Origin: Bacteroidales bacterium
GTDB lineage: Bacteria > Bacteroidota > Bacteroidia > Bacteroidales > UBA932
NCBI GenBank assembly: GCA_024402135.1
Contig: JAKSJN010000018.1
Coordinates: 1 to 43,847 of the forward strand
Length of the DNA: 43,847 nucleotides
Direction of reading: 5' to 3'
The stretch's first letter is position 1. Each line of letters begins with the position of its first letter. Positions 12,645-40,335 of this stretch are shown piece after piece. The position numbers and the translations under genes were made by a program. The notes beneath the pieces were generated by a model. The model saw only the letters and a list, made by a program, of their open reading frames with translations. It made no database searches and was not told the origin of the DNA.

Positions 12645-12660
12645 GCTAAGTTCAATATAT

Positions 12661-12694
12661 AAAGAAGGGCGACTCGATCGAGTCGCCCTTCTTT
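12661..12694. terminator. 34-nt perfect palindrome, terminator after rpoC
   Basis: AAAGAAGGGCGACTCGA (12661-12677) is followed immediately by its exact reverse complement (12678-12694). The RNA would form a long GC-rich stem ending in CTTCTTT on either strand. It lies 17 nt after the rpoC stop and between convergent genes, so it can terminate rpoC and also stop read-through from the opposite side. Confidence 0.8.
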
Positions 12695-12796
12695 GTATAT
12701 ATATCGCGAAGCGAATTCGCATCAGCGAATCGGCCGTGCCGTGTATTTGTGAGTTTACGAACAAATACGGAAAGGTGGAAAGGCCGTAGGGGTTGC
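12695..12796. other. Structured non-coding stretch between rpoC and aroE
   Basis: No gene is seen here. It contains a 10-nt palindrome GCGAATTCGC (about 12710-12719) and an 8-bp inverted repeat GTATTTGT/ACAAATAC (12743-12750 and 12761-12768) with a 10-nt spacer. Together with the flanking hairpins it forms a run of inverted repeats that may be the remains of an intergenic repeat element. Confidence 0.4.
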
Positions 12797-14108: not shown

Positions 14109-15014
14109 CTATCTGTTGCTGTTACGCTGACGTACGGCCTCATATAGCAGGATTGCTGCACTCACTGAAGCATTCAGTGAATCGAGGCGTCCCAGCATTG
14201 GTATCTTGATATGTGCGTCGGCAGCTTCGCGCCACTGATCGGTCAGTCCTGTAGCTTCTGTGCCGATGGCGATGGCTGTTCCGCAGCACATATCCGTATC
14301 ATAGTACCACTCCGAATCCTGGAGCTGTGCGGTGTAGATCCTGATCCCTTTTTCTTTAAGAAATGTGATGGCATCAGTGCTTGCGCAGCAGGCTATCTGC
14401 TGTGTGAACACCGCTCCTATGCTTGCCCTGACAAGATTTGGGTTATAGATGTCTGTAAGAGGGTCACATATGAGTACGGCATCTGCGCCGGCAGCATCCG
14501 CACTGCGGAGCACAGCCCCCAGGTTGCCAGGCTTTTCAACGCCTTCCAGCACGATAACCAGCGGGTTCTCGCCCAGCTCAAGGCTATCCAGGCTGTTCTC
14601 CTTCGAATATACCTCCGCGATGACGCCCTCCGTGCCTCCTCTGTATGCAACCTTGTCATATACAGCCCTGCTCACCTCTATCACGCTATGGCTTTCAAGG
14701 CCAATTGGTAAATTGAGGCTTGAGGTTGGCAGAATGCCCCCGGCAACCCTGCCACCCTCGGCATGGTAAGAGGGGGGACCCTTCAGGGTGGGGTCGAGCG
14801 AAGTGAGACGTTGTCCGGGGGCATTCTGCCAGCCGTTCAATATCTCAGGGCAGATGAAGACGGTACGCAGTCTGAAGCCGGCATTGATGCAATGCTCCAG
14901 CTCGCGGCGTCCCTCCACTACAAAAACGCCCTTCTCGCGTCTCAGGCGTGATTTTTCCTGAAGCGCGAGAAGTTCCTTTATCTTTGGATTCTGGACCGAA
15001 GTGATCTGTTCCAT
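14109..15014 (-). CDS. SPOUT-class (TrmH/SpoU family) RNA methyltransferase, with an in-frame repeat insertion
   Basis: It transfers a methyl group from S-adenosylmethionine to a ribose 2'-OH in rRNA or tRNA; the exact target cannot be read from sequence. Of 301 residues, the N-terminal L30e-like substrate domain covers about 1-135 (VFVVEGRRELEH at 30-41). The SPOUT domain has motif 1 NLGAVLR (164-170), motif 2 GTEATGL (251-257) and motif 3 IPMLG then SLNASVS (271-285), so the trefoil-knot active site is intact. Residues about 61-97 are encoded by a palindrome-bounded repeat and look unrelated to the family. They would form a loop in the substrate domain before the conserved SHSVIEVSRAVYDKVAYR. 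It starts 2 nt after the lysS stop. Confidence 0.9.
   Translation of the reverse strand: MEQITSVQNPKIKELLALQEKSRLRREKGVFVVEGRRELEHCINAGFRLRTVFICPEILNGWQNAPGQRLTSLDPTLKGPPSYHAEGGRVAGGILPTSSLNLPIGLESHSVIEVSRAVYDKVAYRGGTEGVIAEVYSKENSLDSLELGENPLVIVLEGVEKPGNLGAVLRSADAAGADAVLICDPLTDIYNPNLVRASIGAVFTQQIACCASTDAITFLKEKGIRIYTAQLQDSEWYYDTDMCCGTAIAIGTEATGLTDQWREAADAHIKIPMLGRLDSLNASVSAAILLYEAVRQRNSNR
14725..14833. repeat. Palindrome-bounded repeat element (MITE/REP-like) inside a coding region
   Basis: The left arm reads TGGCAGAATGCCCCCGGCAAC (14727-14747, 21 nt, close to the limit quoted). The right arm at 14810-14831 is its reverse complement apart from one extra base, and the match extends outward to about 14725 and 14833 with one further mismatch. 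The roughly 62-nt interior is GC-rich and holds further pairing segments such as ACCCTTCAGGGT. The element of about 109 bp lies wholly inside the methyltransferase gene and is open in its frame, adding about 36 residues. It resembles in concept the Rickettsia palindromic elements found within genes. No transposase is present, so any mobility would be in trans. Confidence 0.72.
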
Positions 15015-22566: not shown

Positions 22567-24035
22567 TATACGTAAGCTCCCATCTTAAGGATGTTCACCT
22601 CGCCCTCGTTGAGGAATCTCCAGTGACCCTTCTCGAGGCCCTTCTTGGTAAGGCCTGCGAAATATACTCTGTCAAGTGCGCGTACATCATATCCGAGTGA
22701 TTCGAAGATGCGGCGTACGATGCGGTTCTTGCCTGAGTGGATCTCGATGCCGAGCTTGCGATGGTCGTTGGCGTCGGTATATGAAAGGGCGTCAGCTGCG
22801 ATGTCGCCATCGGTGAGAGTGATGCCTGAAAGGATCTTGTCGAAGTCTTCCTGGGTAAGCTCATGATCGAGGAATACCTGGTAGATCTTCTTCTTGTCGT
22901 ATGATGGGTGGGTAAGTTTCTCTGCAATCTCGCCATCGTTGGTGAACATGAGCACACCGGTGGTGTTCTTGTCCAGACGGCCTACAGGGAATACTCGTGA
23001 AGGACAATCCTTGAGGAGGTCCATCACTGTCTTGTCTGCATGAGGGTCGCTCGCGGTGGTTACGAAACCCTTAGGCTTGTTCATCACGATATAGACCTTT
23101 TCCTCTCCCTTGAGACGCTCACCGTTGAAGCGGATATCATCAGTGATGACGTTGACCTTGACACCGAGTTCAGTGACAACCTCACCGTTCACGGTCACTA
23201 CGCCAGCCTGGATGTAGGTGTCGGCCTCGCGGCGTGAACATACGCCTGAGTTCGCAATGAACTTGTTGAGGCGGATTTCCTCCTTGAATCCGGTTGCCGC
23301 TGTATCATTGTCAGAGTAGCTTGACATGTCAGGAGCCGGACGGCTGCTGATCATTGTATTGATTCCAGCCTCGTCGATCTCGTTGAACTGATATTCCGGT
23401 CTTTTCTTGAATCCTGGACGTCCATCCGGTCTGCCGAAGCTGCGGCCGCCATTGTTGCCGCCGAATCCACGACGCTGACCGCCGTTGAAACTTCTGCGCT
23501 CTCCGTTTCCGTAGCTTCTGCGCTCGCCGTTGTTGAATGAACGGCGCTCTCCGCCTTCGCCATAGCTGCGACGCTCGCCTCCATTGCTGTAGCTTCTGTG
23601 TTCGCCGTTATTGAAACTTCTGTGCTCTCCGTTTCCGTAGCTTCTGCGCTCACCGTTGTTGAATGAACGGCGCTCTCCGCCATTGCTGTAGCTTCTGCGC
23701 TCGCCGTTATTGAAACTTCTGTGCTCTCCGTTTCCGTAGCTTCTGCGTTCGCCGTTGTTGAATGAGCGGCGTTCTCCGCCTTCGCCATAGCTGCGACGCT
23801 CGCCACCGTTGCTGTAGCTTCTGCGCTCACCATTGTTGAATGAGCGGCGCTCTCCATTCTCGCCATAGCTGCGACGCTCTCCGCCTTCGCCATAGCTTCT
23901 GCGCTCACCATTGCTGCGGCTGTTGTAGCCACGGTGCTCTCCTGAGCTCTGCTGTTCTCCATAGCCGACCTTCTTGCGAGGTCTGAGTCTTCTTCCTTCT
24001 GCGGAAAAATTTCCGTCTTTCTTGTAATCTTCCAT
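22566..24035 (-). CDS. RluB-type rRNA pseudouridine synthase with GERRS-repeat N-terminal tail
   Basis: It isomerises a uridine to pseudouridine in rRNA; the RluB/RsuA group acts on 23S or 16S rRNA. Of 489 residues, an S4 RNA-binding domain lies at about 253-300 (IRLNKFIANSGVCSRREAD). The catalytic domain holds the active-site aspartate in GRLDKNTTG (352-360, Asp355) and SGKNRIVRRIFESLGY (434-449). The first 220 residues are low complexity: a basic stretch, then 17 GE(R/H)RS(Y/F) units (43-187) and a glycine-rich linker. The tail is rich in Arg, Ser, Gly and aromatics, like RGG-type RNA-binding tails. RluB proteins in this phylum often have basic tails, but this regularity is unusual. It overlaps era by one base. 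Confidence 0.9.
   Translation of the reverse strand: MEDYKKDGNFSAEGRRLRPRKKVGYGEQQSSGEHRGYNSRSNGERRSYGEGGERRSYGENGERRSFNNGERRSYSNGGERRSYGEGGERRSFNNGERRSYGNGEHRSFNNGERRSYSNGGERRSFNNGERRSYGNGEHRSFNNGEHRSYSNGGERRSYGEGGERRSFNNGERRSYGNGERRSFNGGQRRGFGGNNGGRSFGRPDGRPGFKKRPEYQFNEIDEAGINTMISSRPAPDMSSYSDNDTAATGFKEEIRLNKFIANSGVCSRREADTYIQAGVVTVNGEVVTELGVKVNVITDDIRFNGERLKGEEKVYIVMNKPKGFVTTASDPHADKTVMDLLKDCPSRVFPVGRLDKNTTGVLMFTNDGEIAEKLTHPSYDKKKIYQVFLDHELTQEDFDKILSGITLTDGDIAADALSYTDANDHRKLGIEIHSGKNRIVRRIFESLGYDVRALDRVYFAGLTKKGLEKGHWRFLNEGEVNILKMGAYV
23475..23909 (-). repeat. Coding tandem repeat, 17 units of 24-27 bp (GERRSY/GERRSF)
   Basis: In the frame of the pseudouridine synthase, residues 43-187 consist of 17 consecutive units of 8 or 9 residues with core GERRSY or GERRSF (sometimes GEHRS), followed by variable NN, GN, SNG or GEG. 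Blocks of several units recur in the same order, so the array probably grew by unequal exchange. It keeps the frame throughout. Confidence 0.92.
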
Positions 24036-37374: not shown

Positions 37375-40335
37375 ATGAAAAAAATCATTAGAATGGCTGC
37401 TATGCTCGCCGTTGCCGGTGCAGCATTGCTTACCAGCTGTACTAAGGATTATTCAGGCGACATCAAGGGTCTTCAGGACAGAATGGACGCAGCTGAGAAG
37501 TCTCTCACCGCTATCCAGGGTCAGATCAACAATGGCGCTATCCTTACTGCAGTAAACAAGACCGCTAATGGTATCCAGGTTGTTACCACCAACGGTACTT
37601 ATGAGATCACCAACGGCCTCAACGGCGCTGACGGAAAGCCAGGTGCTGATGGAAAGCCAGGTGCTGACGGAAAGCCAGGTACCGTATGGACCATCGGTGA
37701 GGATGGTTACTGGTACTGTGACGGCGTTAAGTCTGACTATGCTAAGGGTTCAACCGTAGCTGTAGTTGACGGAAAGCTTATGATCGACGGCGAAGAGGCT
37801 GGTCTTGCACAGGGCCTTACCGCTGTTTATGACGAGGAGAACCAGACTCTCGTACTCTACGGTGTAGAGGGCTTCGAGGAGGGTTATACCATCGGTACCG
37901 GCGTTGAGATCGGTTACATCTCAGTTCTTCCTGGTGACGTTCTCGCTCAAGAGTTGTATCATGGATATAAGGGCAACTATGCTAGACTTACCATCTATAA
38001 CGTTACCGAGAAGGAGAACACCTTCGGTCCTGCAAAGGGTGAGAAGGTAGAGTTCACCGAGGGCAAGTCACTCAACAAGGGTGCTGACATGCTTCTCCGT
38101 GTTTCTCCAGTCAACGCTAAGATCGATCCTGCAAAGCTTTCTCTCATCAACACCAAGGGTGAGGTTCTCGAGCATGTAGTTGCTGAGGCTGTTAAGCCTT
38201 ATGACAAGCTTTTGACTGAATCTAGCGAAACCAAGGCTGGTCAGAATGGTCTCTATGTTGTTACCTTCAATCTTGAGGAGGGTGCTGATACCGCTGCTTT
38301 CAAGGCAGCTGTTGCAACTACCATCAAGGATCGTCAGGACGAATGGGAGGAGAACATTCTCTTTGCTGTTAAGCACGACAAGTCTATCTCAGGTTACGAC
38401 GTAGTCCTTGGCCTTGAGGATGACGCTATCTGCTCAGACGGTAAGGAAGGTCTCCACGACATTCTCATCAACGAGACTTCAATCGCTGAGATCCACAACC
38501 GTTACACTGAGTGCGAGGATGGTGAGACTACCGATCACCTTACCGAGCTTACCTGGCTTGACGACGTTCCTGCAGTTGCTCCTATTCTCGAGGACAGCAA
38601 GGACGGCAAGATCAAGGCTAACGTAGGTGGCCGTCTTGAGGGCGACGTTATTGGCTATCCTGAGGATAACCGTCAGGAAATGGACCTCCTCTATGTTGTA
38701 AAGGGCGAGAAGATCACCATCAAGTTCGTTGAGCCTACCGTTAAGGCATTCTATGTAGAGCTCGATTCTGAGTACGCTCTCGAGTCTACCCCTTCTGAGA
38801 TCAACGCTTGGAACTCTTACGAGTACGAGAATGTTGGTACCAAGAAGCAGGTTGCTACCCTCCAGATGGGTTCTGAGGGTTACATCACCATCAAGGACCT
38901 CAACAATGTTGCAGGTGACATCATCGGTTTCCGCGTTTACGCTGCTAACCTCGATGGTACCCTCTGCGATCCAGATGGTAAGGCATTCTATGTATACGTA
39001 GGCGAGGCTGCTACCAACAGCGACATCACTGTTGACATCAACGCTGCTTCTTACGTTGACGCTACCCTCGGTATCGAGGCTCCTGCTGCTACCACCGGTC
39101 TCCTCAAGATCGCTGACGTTGCTCCTGAGCTCGAGCTCAAGAACGCTAACGGTGCTGTTAAGGGTTGGACTGCTGCTAAGACCAACGATCCTAAGGACGA
39201 GGTATTCACCGTTAAGTTCTACGACAAGAAGAAGGCTGAGATCACCGACGCTGCTAAGTACGCTTCTGCAGTTTACGTTGAGGTTTCTACCGACGATATC
39301 ACCAAGTTCTACGATAACGCTACCTACACCCAGACTCTCCTTACCTACAACGATAAGAACGGTCTTGTACAGAAGATCACCGCTAACATCACCAAGGTTA
39401 TGCCTACCGAGGCTGAGCTCGTAGAGTTCCGTCCTAAGCAGGAGACCGAGGATGGTTCAGGCATCTTCAAGGCTTACATGATCCCATTCTTCAACAAGGA
39501 TGCAGCTGATCTCGCTGGCCAGCAGGCTCAGTACAAGGTTGCTAAAGAGCCAGCTGCAGTTGGTACCAAGGATCTCAACAACGTATTCTACGGCCTTGAT
39601 GAGACCTATGTATTCACCGTTGCTAACGCTGTTTACAACGAGAAGACCAAGAAGTTCGACCAGCCACTCGTTATCGCTTACACTGACAACTCAGTTACCG
39701 GTCTTACCTATGACATGACCGTTGCTACCGATCTTATCGACAATAAGACCCAGCATGCTATCACCGTCGAGGTTAACTACGGTGCTATCTCTACCACCAA
39801 GGATAAGGATGGCGAGCCAGTTGTTAAGGAGTACAAGGTTAAGGCTGATCAGACCCTCCAGGTTATCTTCGCTTGCTGGCATGACGCTGAGAAGTACGTT
39901 TGGAAGACTGACGTTGACGCTAAGACTGGTAAGGTTACCAAGGATTACACTCCTGCACCACAGTGGACCGCTGAGGCTAAGGGTGACGAGGCAGAGTTCA
40001 CTGCTATCCTTGCTACCTCTTCTTACAACAACGACTTCTTCGGTGACATGAGCGTTGCTGACATCATGGAACTCGGATGGCTTATCCTCGCAGTTGATGA
40101 GGATGGTAAGGAAATCGCTCCTGAGCTTGTTTACGAGCCTAAGAAGCAGGTTAACCCTTACTTCATCCCTTCTATCGAAGAGGGCAAGATCAAGTTCGAG
40201 CAGATCTCTACCCAGGTTGATGCAGCTCCAGTTGCTGACCACAAGGAGACTCTCAAGATCTACGTTCAGGATGCATTCGGACACCAGTCTGCAATCAGCA
40301 CCGAGATCGTTGTAAAGAAGCCTAACACCAAGTAA
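37375..40335 (+). CDS. Large surface lipoprotein, DUF4988 (PL29 N-terminal-like), paralogue 1
   Basis: The 986-residue lipoprotein (from ATG 37375) has a signal peptide with lipobox LLTSC (Cys22), then KDY, a partial match to Bacteroidota surface-export signals. A short coiled coil (GLQDRMDAAEKSLTAIQGQI) and an ITNG(L)NGADGKPG collagen-like stretch (to about residue 102) form a DUF4988-like stalk. Residues about 165-555 are a beta-rich region absent from its neighbour. Residues about 558-986 form a module shared with the next gene. I cannot name that module and see no enzyme motif. Codon use (GCT, ACC, GGT, CGT, AAG) is as biased as tuf, implying very high expression. An in-frame ATG at 37369 is less likely. 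Confidence 0.8.
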   Translation: MKKIIRMAAMLAVAGAALLTSCTKDYSGDIKGLQDRMDAAEKSLTAIQGQINNGAILTAVNKTANGIQVVTTNGTYEITNGLNGADGKPGADGKPGADGKPGTVWTIGEDGYWYCDGVKSDYAKGSTVAVVDGKLMIDGEEAGLAQGLTAVYDEENQTLVLYGVEGFEEGYTIGTGVEIGYISVLPGDVLAQELYHGYKGNYARLTIYNVTEKENTFGPAKGEKVEFTEGKSLNKGADMLLRVSPVNAKIDPAKLSLINTKGEVLEHVVAEAVKPYDKLLTESSETKAGQNGLYVVTFNLEEGADTAAFKAAVATTIKDRQDEWEENILFAVKHDKSISGYDVVLGLEDDAICSDGKEGLHDILINETSIAEIHNRYTECEDGETTDHLTELTWLDDVPAVAPILEDSKDGKIKANVGGRLEGDVIGYPEDNRQEMDLLYVVKGEKITIKFVEPTVKAFYVELDSEYALESTPSEINAWNSYEYENVGTKKQVATLQMGSEGYITIKDLNNVAGDIIGFRVYAANLDGTLCDPDGKAFYVYVGEAATNSDITVDINAASYVDATLGIEAPAATTGLLKIADVAPELELKNANGAVKGWTAAKTNDPKDEVFTVKFYDKKKAEITDAAKYASAVYVEVSTDDITKFYDNATYTQTLLTYNDKNGLVQKITANITKVMPTEAELVEFRPKQETEDGSGIFKAYMIPFFNKDAADLAGQQAQYKVAKEPAAVGTKDLNNVFYGLDETYVFTVANAVYNEKTKKFDQPLVIAYTDNSVTGLTYDMTVATDLIDNKTQHAITVEVNYGAISTTKDKDGEPVVKEYKVKADQTLQVIFACWHDAEKYVWKTDVDAKTGKVTKDYTPAPQWTAEAKGDEAEFTAILATSSYNNDFFGDMSVADIMELGWLILAVDEDGKEIAPELVYEPKKQVNPYFIPSIEEGKIKFEQISTQVDAAPVADHKETLKIYVQDAFGHQSAISTEIVVKKPNTK
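37624..37680 (+). repeat. Three 18-bp tandem repeats encoding collagen-like GADGKP
   Basis: GGTGCTGACGGAAAGCCA occurs three times in tandem (37624-37641, 37642-37659, 37660-37677) with two base changes, followed by GGT. It encodes Gly-X-Y triplets GADGKP x3, a rod-like linker between coiled coil and globular domains, and is prone to copy-number change. Confidence 0.9.

Follow-up and report, generated by a model that had tools for sequence, protein, structure and literature searches.

An in-frame palindromic repeat in a Bacteroidales RNA methyltransferase gene, with a core common to many copies and arms that mostly are not

Within the 43,847-nt stretch of Bacteroidales DNA that we analysed (the window), an RNA methyltransferase gene carries a 111-nt palindrome that is probably one copy of a small palindromic mobile repeat family, common in its genus, which we take to be Cryptobacteroides. 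The core of this element is common to the copies while the arms mostly are not; genes hold many copies in frame, oriented either way; and between close species the element is found inverted or exchanged at one locus. The window holds a single copy, the others of this genome lying elsewhere.

The element in the methyltransferase gene

The features of the window copy and its host gene are the following.

14109..15014, minus strand: host gene, a SpoU/TrmH-family RNA 2'-O-methyltransferase of 301 aa (open reading frame, Pfam and a solved relative)
14724..14834, minus strand: whole palindromic element, 111 nt or 37 codons, residues 61-97, open in the gene frame
14815..14834, minus strand: arm on the 5' side of the gene strand (inverted-repeat search)
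14741..14815, minus strand: conserved core, matched at 68.4 bits by covariance model R1, which was built partly from the window copy
14793..14809, minus strand: inner hairpin H0 (GTC...GAC), after a CGTC motif
14778..14789, minus strand: inner hairpin H1 (ACCC-TGAA-GGGT), its stem varying between copies
14755..14774, minus strand: inner hairpin H2 (CCCTC...GAGGG), the best paired helix in the 12-sequence alignment
14724..14743, minus strand: arm on the 3' side of the gene strand, 95% complementary to the other arm

The two arms, each of 20 nt and 95% complementary, are spaced 71 nt apart, and the predicted fold lengthens their stem by way of a bulge. Positions 14720-14838 fold as RNA with a minimum free energy of -61.9 kcal/mol, as compared to -41.8 ± 3.9 kcal/mol for shuffled sequences (z = -5.2; none of 200 shuffles folds as well); with DNA parameters, z is -5.6 against shuffles. 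A chance palindrome is ruled out by this fold and by the further copies of the core in the genome. An earlier note on this DNA had described inverted arms around an internally paired interior at about 14725..14833, inserted in frame at residues 61-97 or so of an RNA methyltransferase; both descriptions are borne out, with a strong palindrome bounded at 14724-14834 and 37 codons that are open in the frame of the gene.

A Pfam scan of the host protein places SpoU_methylase at residues 152-291 (E 2.5e-35); for an MRM3-like substrate-binding domain the best stretch is residues 9-64. The best solved relative is 9h1k, whose chain residues 23-75 match query residues 4-57 and whose residues 88-276 match query residues 110-299; since these aligned blocks are only 12 residues apart in 9h1k, query residues 58-109 hold about 40 extra residues. 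An AlphaFold model made from two sequences is of low confidence (mean pLDDT 55, pTM 0.47); its longest stretch with pLDDT below 50 spans residues 64-101, and residues 64-109 are modelled as coil in the N-terminal part, with a helix before and a strand after. Judging from Pfam and this low-confidence model, the element's loop appears to sit within the N-terminal domain of the methyltransferase and not between two domains. The outcome in the window looks like a 37-residue extra loop in an enzyme that otherwise seems intact.

A common core with arms specific to each locus

By blastn the core is found again at several places in the same genome, where seven copies have a common core and differing arms. 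These seven cores, together with five from the methyltransferase hinges of relatives, made up the 12 sequences from which we built R1, the single covariance model behind all of our model searches. R1 finds 12 places in the genome of the window at E≤0.1, of which a contig end truncates one, and at E≤0.001 it matches 33 of 61 related genomes, namely 33 of the 37 that belong to the genus and none of the 24 from other families. The element is thereby multi-copy and dispersed when searched against its genome and relatives, a single-copy sequence is ruled out by the 12 places and the blastn matches, and the earlier proposal of a repeat family colonising coding regions in this Bacteroidota lineage is supported. 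When 197 genomes were drawn more widely from the order and hits were filtered strictly at E≤0.0001, five genomes including our own had matches; the four outside the genus were one from another genus of the family and three from other families, and one further genus member in this draw had no match at that threshold. A pattern scan of named genomes returned at least 120 stretches; among the matches listed, 80 titles are Bacteroidales, Bacteroidia or Prevotellaceae, nearly all titles are metagenome-assembled or uncultured, and many isolate names suggest rumen or other gut. Our total collection comprises 305 distinct element copies.

The common core is about 70-120 nt long and has three hairpins and no protein of its own. 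In many copies H0 ends in GAC and is followed by CCCC[A/T]CC; the stem of H1 is highly variable among copies; and H2 consists of CCCTC/GAGGG, then GGGTGGC. CGTC precedes H0 in several copies by eye, with GCCTC, AACTTC and other forms elsewhere. For the 12 sequences, from which the structure used in the test was itself drawn, the covariation score of the core is 0.348 as compared to 0.173 ± 0.022 after shuffling, above all 500 shuffles; of the five covariation measures one, the count of further pair types, is not unusual (17 versus 15.3 shuffled, with 17 reached by 106 of 500). A search of Rfam with the window copy alone brought no family near its gathering score.

Arms were compared as the 30 nt to either side of the core, and as a control we crossed copies, so that the left and right arms of a pair came from different ones; six of the 305 copies lack 40 nt on both sides and were left out. 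The arm-to-arm score is at least 10 in 267 of 299 copies versus three of 299 crossed pairs. Within six genomes the cores are alike (mean similarity ratio 0.62 to 0.87), and the left arms of different copies score near background (means 5.0 to 6.6, shuffled 5.0; one of 78 copies was dropped from this comparison). There are exceptions: single left-to-left arm pairs in one genome score up to 15, and inner arm segments common to some copies can be seen by eye, GGCAG-TCTTTTCC in the genome of the window and GGCAGCTC in G008. Bearing in mind that all of these genomes are draft assemblies, and that the titled ones are mostly metagenomic, repeats could be mis-joined. The exact arm-to-arm matches are mostly short (median 12 nt; at least 21 nt in 37 of 300 copies), which to some extent argues against assembly error as the explanation.

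Copies inside genes and the methyltransferase hinge

In a first set of 78 copies, 60 fall within an open frame that leaves 30 codons to either side of them. Across the collection, frames of at least 200 codons, with at least 50 on each side of the element, enclose 189 of the 284 assessable copies (another 21 of the 305 are too near a sequence end for frame assessment), and these divide into 97 sense and 92 antisense. Five of the 95 remaining copies are flanked on both sides by one of these host proteins, in a test that recognises only the host proteins already found. Because DNA this rich in GC can hold open frames by chance, host frames were scanned with Pfam: of the 47 in the first set with at least 250 codons, nine are methyltransferase loci and the other 38 were scanned. 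Families on both sides of the element, or one family spanning it, were found in 21; eight have two stretches of one family, eight a family on one side only, and one has none.

Judged by Pfam family, the hosts include MetH, PDH E2, GH92, GH3, KsgA, PurD, Fmt, AroC, IspH, FtsK, TldD and RsmF, with TruB as a host in the genome of the window. Many hosts in the scanned sample are housekeeping enzymes, and the element is often between domains; MetH holds two copies, both of them so placed, and in PDH E2 one and the same linker is open with the element in either orientation (L098 antisense, L117 sense). These placements suggest that bacterial genes can absorb such hairpin DNA as extra protein loops, and the hundreds of copies are a record of loops that, whichever of two translations is used, tolerate some 30-40 extra residues. 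Two further repeats came to our attention in host genes. Residues ~600-650 of a CitC-CitG protein (the L115 frame) match many unrelated places in the genus and seem to be a second protein-coding repeat. In the GH3 gene, another repeat-like stretch, starting TCGGAGCGAAGCGAC, lies beside the element site and is common to both species (L254 and L195).

A further observation concerns the hinge of the methyltransferase. We aligned 30 methyltransferases, our own included, of which eight have the element. The residues that the earlier note had singled out as foreign to the enzyme, 61-97, are accordingly absent from the other 22: in 20 the hinge is short, and in two (L029 and L034) it holds, by our reading, other repeats or remnants. 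Elements at this hinge occur in both orientations, those of L028 and L033 being antisense. A tree that leaves out the hinge requires four changes of the element, at least three of them forced by well-supported branches, and on it the methyltransferase of the window pairs with an orthologue that lacks the element (support 97/92). Insertion at this hinge probably occurred more than once. The pattern is most simply read as repeated arrival at a single tolerant loop, and losses can explain part of it. The earlier note was right about a family in coding regions, and it overlooked the locus-specific arms, the two orientations, the inversion and exchange, and this re-use of the hinge. At the same loop, the L029 hinge of another species (G006) has a different repeat: GAPRDDNNEG in tandem, along with a REP-like TCATTCCGAGCGAAGCGAAGGAATC unit.

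Of the known systems, Rickettsia palindromic elements (RPE) come closest in behaviour and CGTC-tagged REPs in build. Two features of RPE are present in this family: it is a dispersed palindromic repeat of roughly 100-150 bp, and it inserts in frame in unrelated protein genes. Locus-specific arms, about equal use of both orientations and inversion between close species go beyond the comparison with RPE that the earlier note had drawn; the first two, together with the re-use of linkers, may set this family apart from RPE. CGTC beside a hairpin, which the excerpted literature describes for CGTC-tagged REPs, may be a likeness to this family, in which several copies have CGTC before H0 by eye and others have different forms. 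Loops like GAGCGAAGCGA may be a further likeness between the two. RPE are ~150 bp long, and nearly half were in frame in unrelated genes in their first report, according to an excerpt of PMC10969869. CGTC-tagged REPs, which include RPE-4, RPE-6 and the dRS3 of Neisseria, are reported in Bacteroidetes, have no linked transposase, and are sometimes nested in longer palindromes and sometimes intragenic (PMC3733652, in excerpt). CGTC-tagged REPs are single stem-loops of 20-40 bp, whereas this family has three hairpins inside a stem that varies with the locus, and two thirds of its assessable copies are in long open frames. The earlier note knew of no named Bacteroidota family with such behaviour; our search of the literature on coding palindromes, restricted by licence, agrees in that no named Bacteroidota coding-palindrome family was recognised, though CGTC-type REPs are reported from the phylum (PMC3733652, in excerpt). 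The present family extends coding palindromes beyond Rickettsia to uncultured Bacteroidales of the rumen and gut.

Inversion, mobility and the origin of the arms

Orthologous loci were paired by flank identity, and pairs that were more than 99.6% identical or lacked 25-nt arms were dropped. In 73 pairs with flanks at least 84% identical, which have loci and species in common and are therefore not independent, the arms are conserved in 53 (35 in the same orientation, 18 inverted) and unrelated in 20 (6 in the same orientation, 14 inverted); the threshold score for calling arms conserved was 9, random pairs averaging 6.1 with a 95th percentile of 9.5. At RsmF (L226 versus L121) the whole unit is inverted, arms included, and between L296 and L301, with a flank identity of 98.4%, the whole palindrome has been exchanged. 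A first count of inversions was rejected, in that it lumped true inversions together with whole-palindrome exchanges; the 73-pair analysis separates them. Locus-specific arms and whole-palindrome exchange call for an insertion mechanism beyond ordinary direct-repeat transposition.

In-place inversion in 18 of the 53 pairs with conserved arms, together with the two open orientations at one PDH E2 linker (L098 antisense, L117 sense), would fit a site-specific invertase that flips the segment and alternates a protein loop. Chanin et al. 2024 reportedly describe such intragenic invertons of gut bacteria, with inversion in coding sequence between inverted repeats; we know of no report of one dispersed repeat family among them. 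We consider this reading very unlikely, bearing in mind that the arms differ between loci and have short exact matches (median 12 nt), unlike a common recombinase site, that many hosts are housekeeping enzymes, and that inversion is known here as differences between species rather than as flipping within one population. Correia elements, which are mainly intergenic in Neisseria and have fixed terminal repeats, resemble this family as small repeats with inversion, but the present copies are often in genes and their arms are locus-specific. An excerpt of PMC10969869 describes Correia elements as small MITEs with reported inversion.

The paired loci also bear on whether the insertions are old, with a hairpin kept by selection on RNA (messenger stability, termination or translation) and arms that changed in compensatory steps. 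The arms do remain complementary while differing between loci, and the core stems covary. Against this, unrelated arms in 20 of the 73 pairs, at flanks at least 84% identical, seem too fast a change for stepwise compensation; the inner hairpins, with 97 sense and 92 antisense copies in genes, are transcribed about equally often from either strand; and 22 of the 30 aligned methyltransferases manage without the element. We judge RNA selection of this kind to be unlikely.

Near-empty orthologous sites were compared with filled ones in 55 pairs, which are not independent and include one from within a single locus. On average the score is 8.0 for the better arm, 5.4 for the other arm and 5.3 for control arms. 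A native arm is present at a minority of sites, and most empty sites resemble neither arm. Near-empty MetH sites of two related species, L332 (flank identity 88.7%) and L385 (79.7%), have one arm-like segment and no core, with scores of 13 and 17 versus control maxima of 8 and 7; CitC-CitG (L240, 76-77% identity) is similar, with scores of 12 and 16 versus controls of 9 and 10. The high scores of L161 (26 and 18) arise where the model boundary falls in native flank, and the score of 17 for L371 has a control at 15. Many other species have shorter linkers at the MetH and CitC-CitG sites, so that one-arm sites can be scars of loss and not pre-insertion targets; some MetH linkers are longer. That the arms are generally an inverted copy of native flank fitted MetH and CitC-CitG; most of the 55 pairs do not fit, and these data do not support copying of the target flank as a general rule.

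Locus-specific arms would also result if the element targeted existing palindromes, such as terminators or REP-like hairpins, with the core entering their loops. REP dimers nested in longer palindromes are described from other bacteria in the excerpted PMC3733652, some intergenic copies of our family have terminator-like arms with an A-run and a T-run (L128/L296), and a short ready hairpin can be seen by eye at two near-empty sites, L194 and L240. The second arm is nevertheless at the control level in the 55 near-empty pairs (5.4 versus 5.3), so a ready palindrome is not the rule; near-empty MetH sites have at most one arm and the GH3 site L195 has neither; and at one site with 98.4% flank identity the arms have been swapped wholesale between species. 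Pre-existing palindromes as a general target are unsupported by these pairs, and we regard the proposal as improbable.

A single Y1 transposase match is found in the genome of the window; its frame has 134 codons, and no element copy lies within 1.5 kb on each side of it. Y1 matches occur in 27 of the 37 genus genomes, mostly in frames of ~290-370 codons, a RAYT-like size (L438-L457). We scanned 26 of the Y1 loci found in the genus (25 genus loci and our own) for up to ~2.2 kb on each side, some being cut by contig ends. This family is like RAYT-mobilised REPs and REPINs in being a short structured repeat without a gene of its own, in a genus where many genomes encode Y1-domain proteins; it differs in that no copy adjoins 24 of the 25 scanned genus loci, the single exception being a copy within a KsgA-like gene, at ~0.9 kb from the Y1 frame. 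No dedicated transposase tracks the element at the scanned Y1 loci, and a plain RAYT/REP explanation is unsupported because copies do not flank Y1 genes there.

The explanation we prefer is that each copy is a structured core that closes a stem. The core would spread as single-stranded or cruciform DNA through a host or borrowed activity, and mirror arms would be made or remade at each landing site, perhaps by fold-back copying of flanking DNA at insertion or by template switching afterwards. This arm-making step is the least certain part of the explanation, and we put it at somewhat under an even chance. The arms could then allow the unit to flip in place, and selection would remove gene-breaking insertions, with the result that the surviving insertions lengthen a loop or linker by an open stretch that is a multiple of three. 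We also entertain, as a speculation that is rather more doubtful, a stronger form of the idea: insertion would leave an inverted copy of the target flank with the core at the fold-back tip, giving every site a palindrome of its own, and that palindrome might serve as a flip switch, by which linkers of housekeeping enzymes throughout the genus would alternate two unrelated peptides and be repeatedly rebuilt.

The window contains other repeats as well. A nearly perfect, terminator-like palindrome of 46 nt stands directly after an rpoC-like gene (12655-12700); a 161-nt repeat is present in five overlapping copies that are at least 60% identical (23473-23936); and three tandem units with an 18-nt spacing read as collagen-like GADGKPG (37624-37680).
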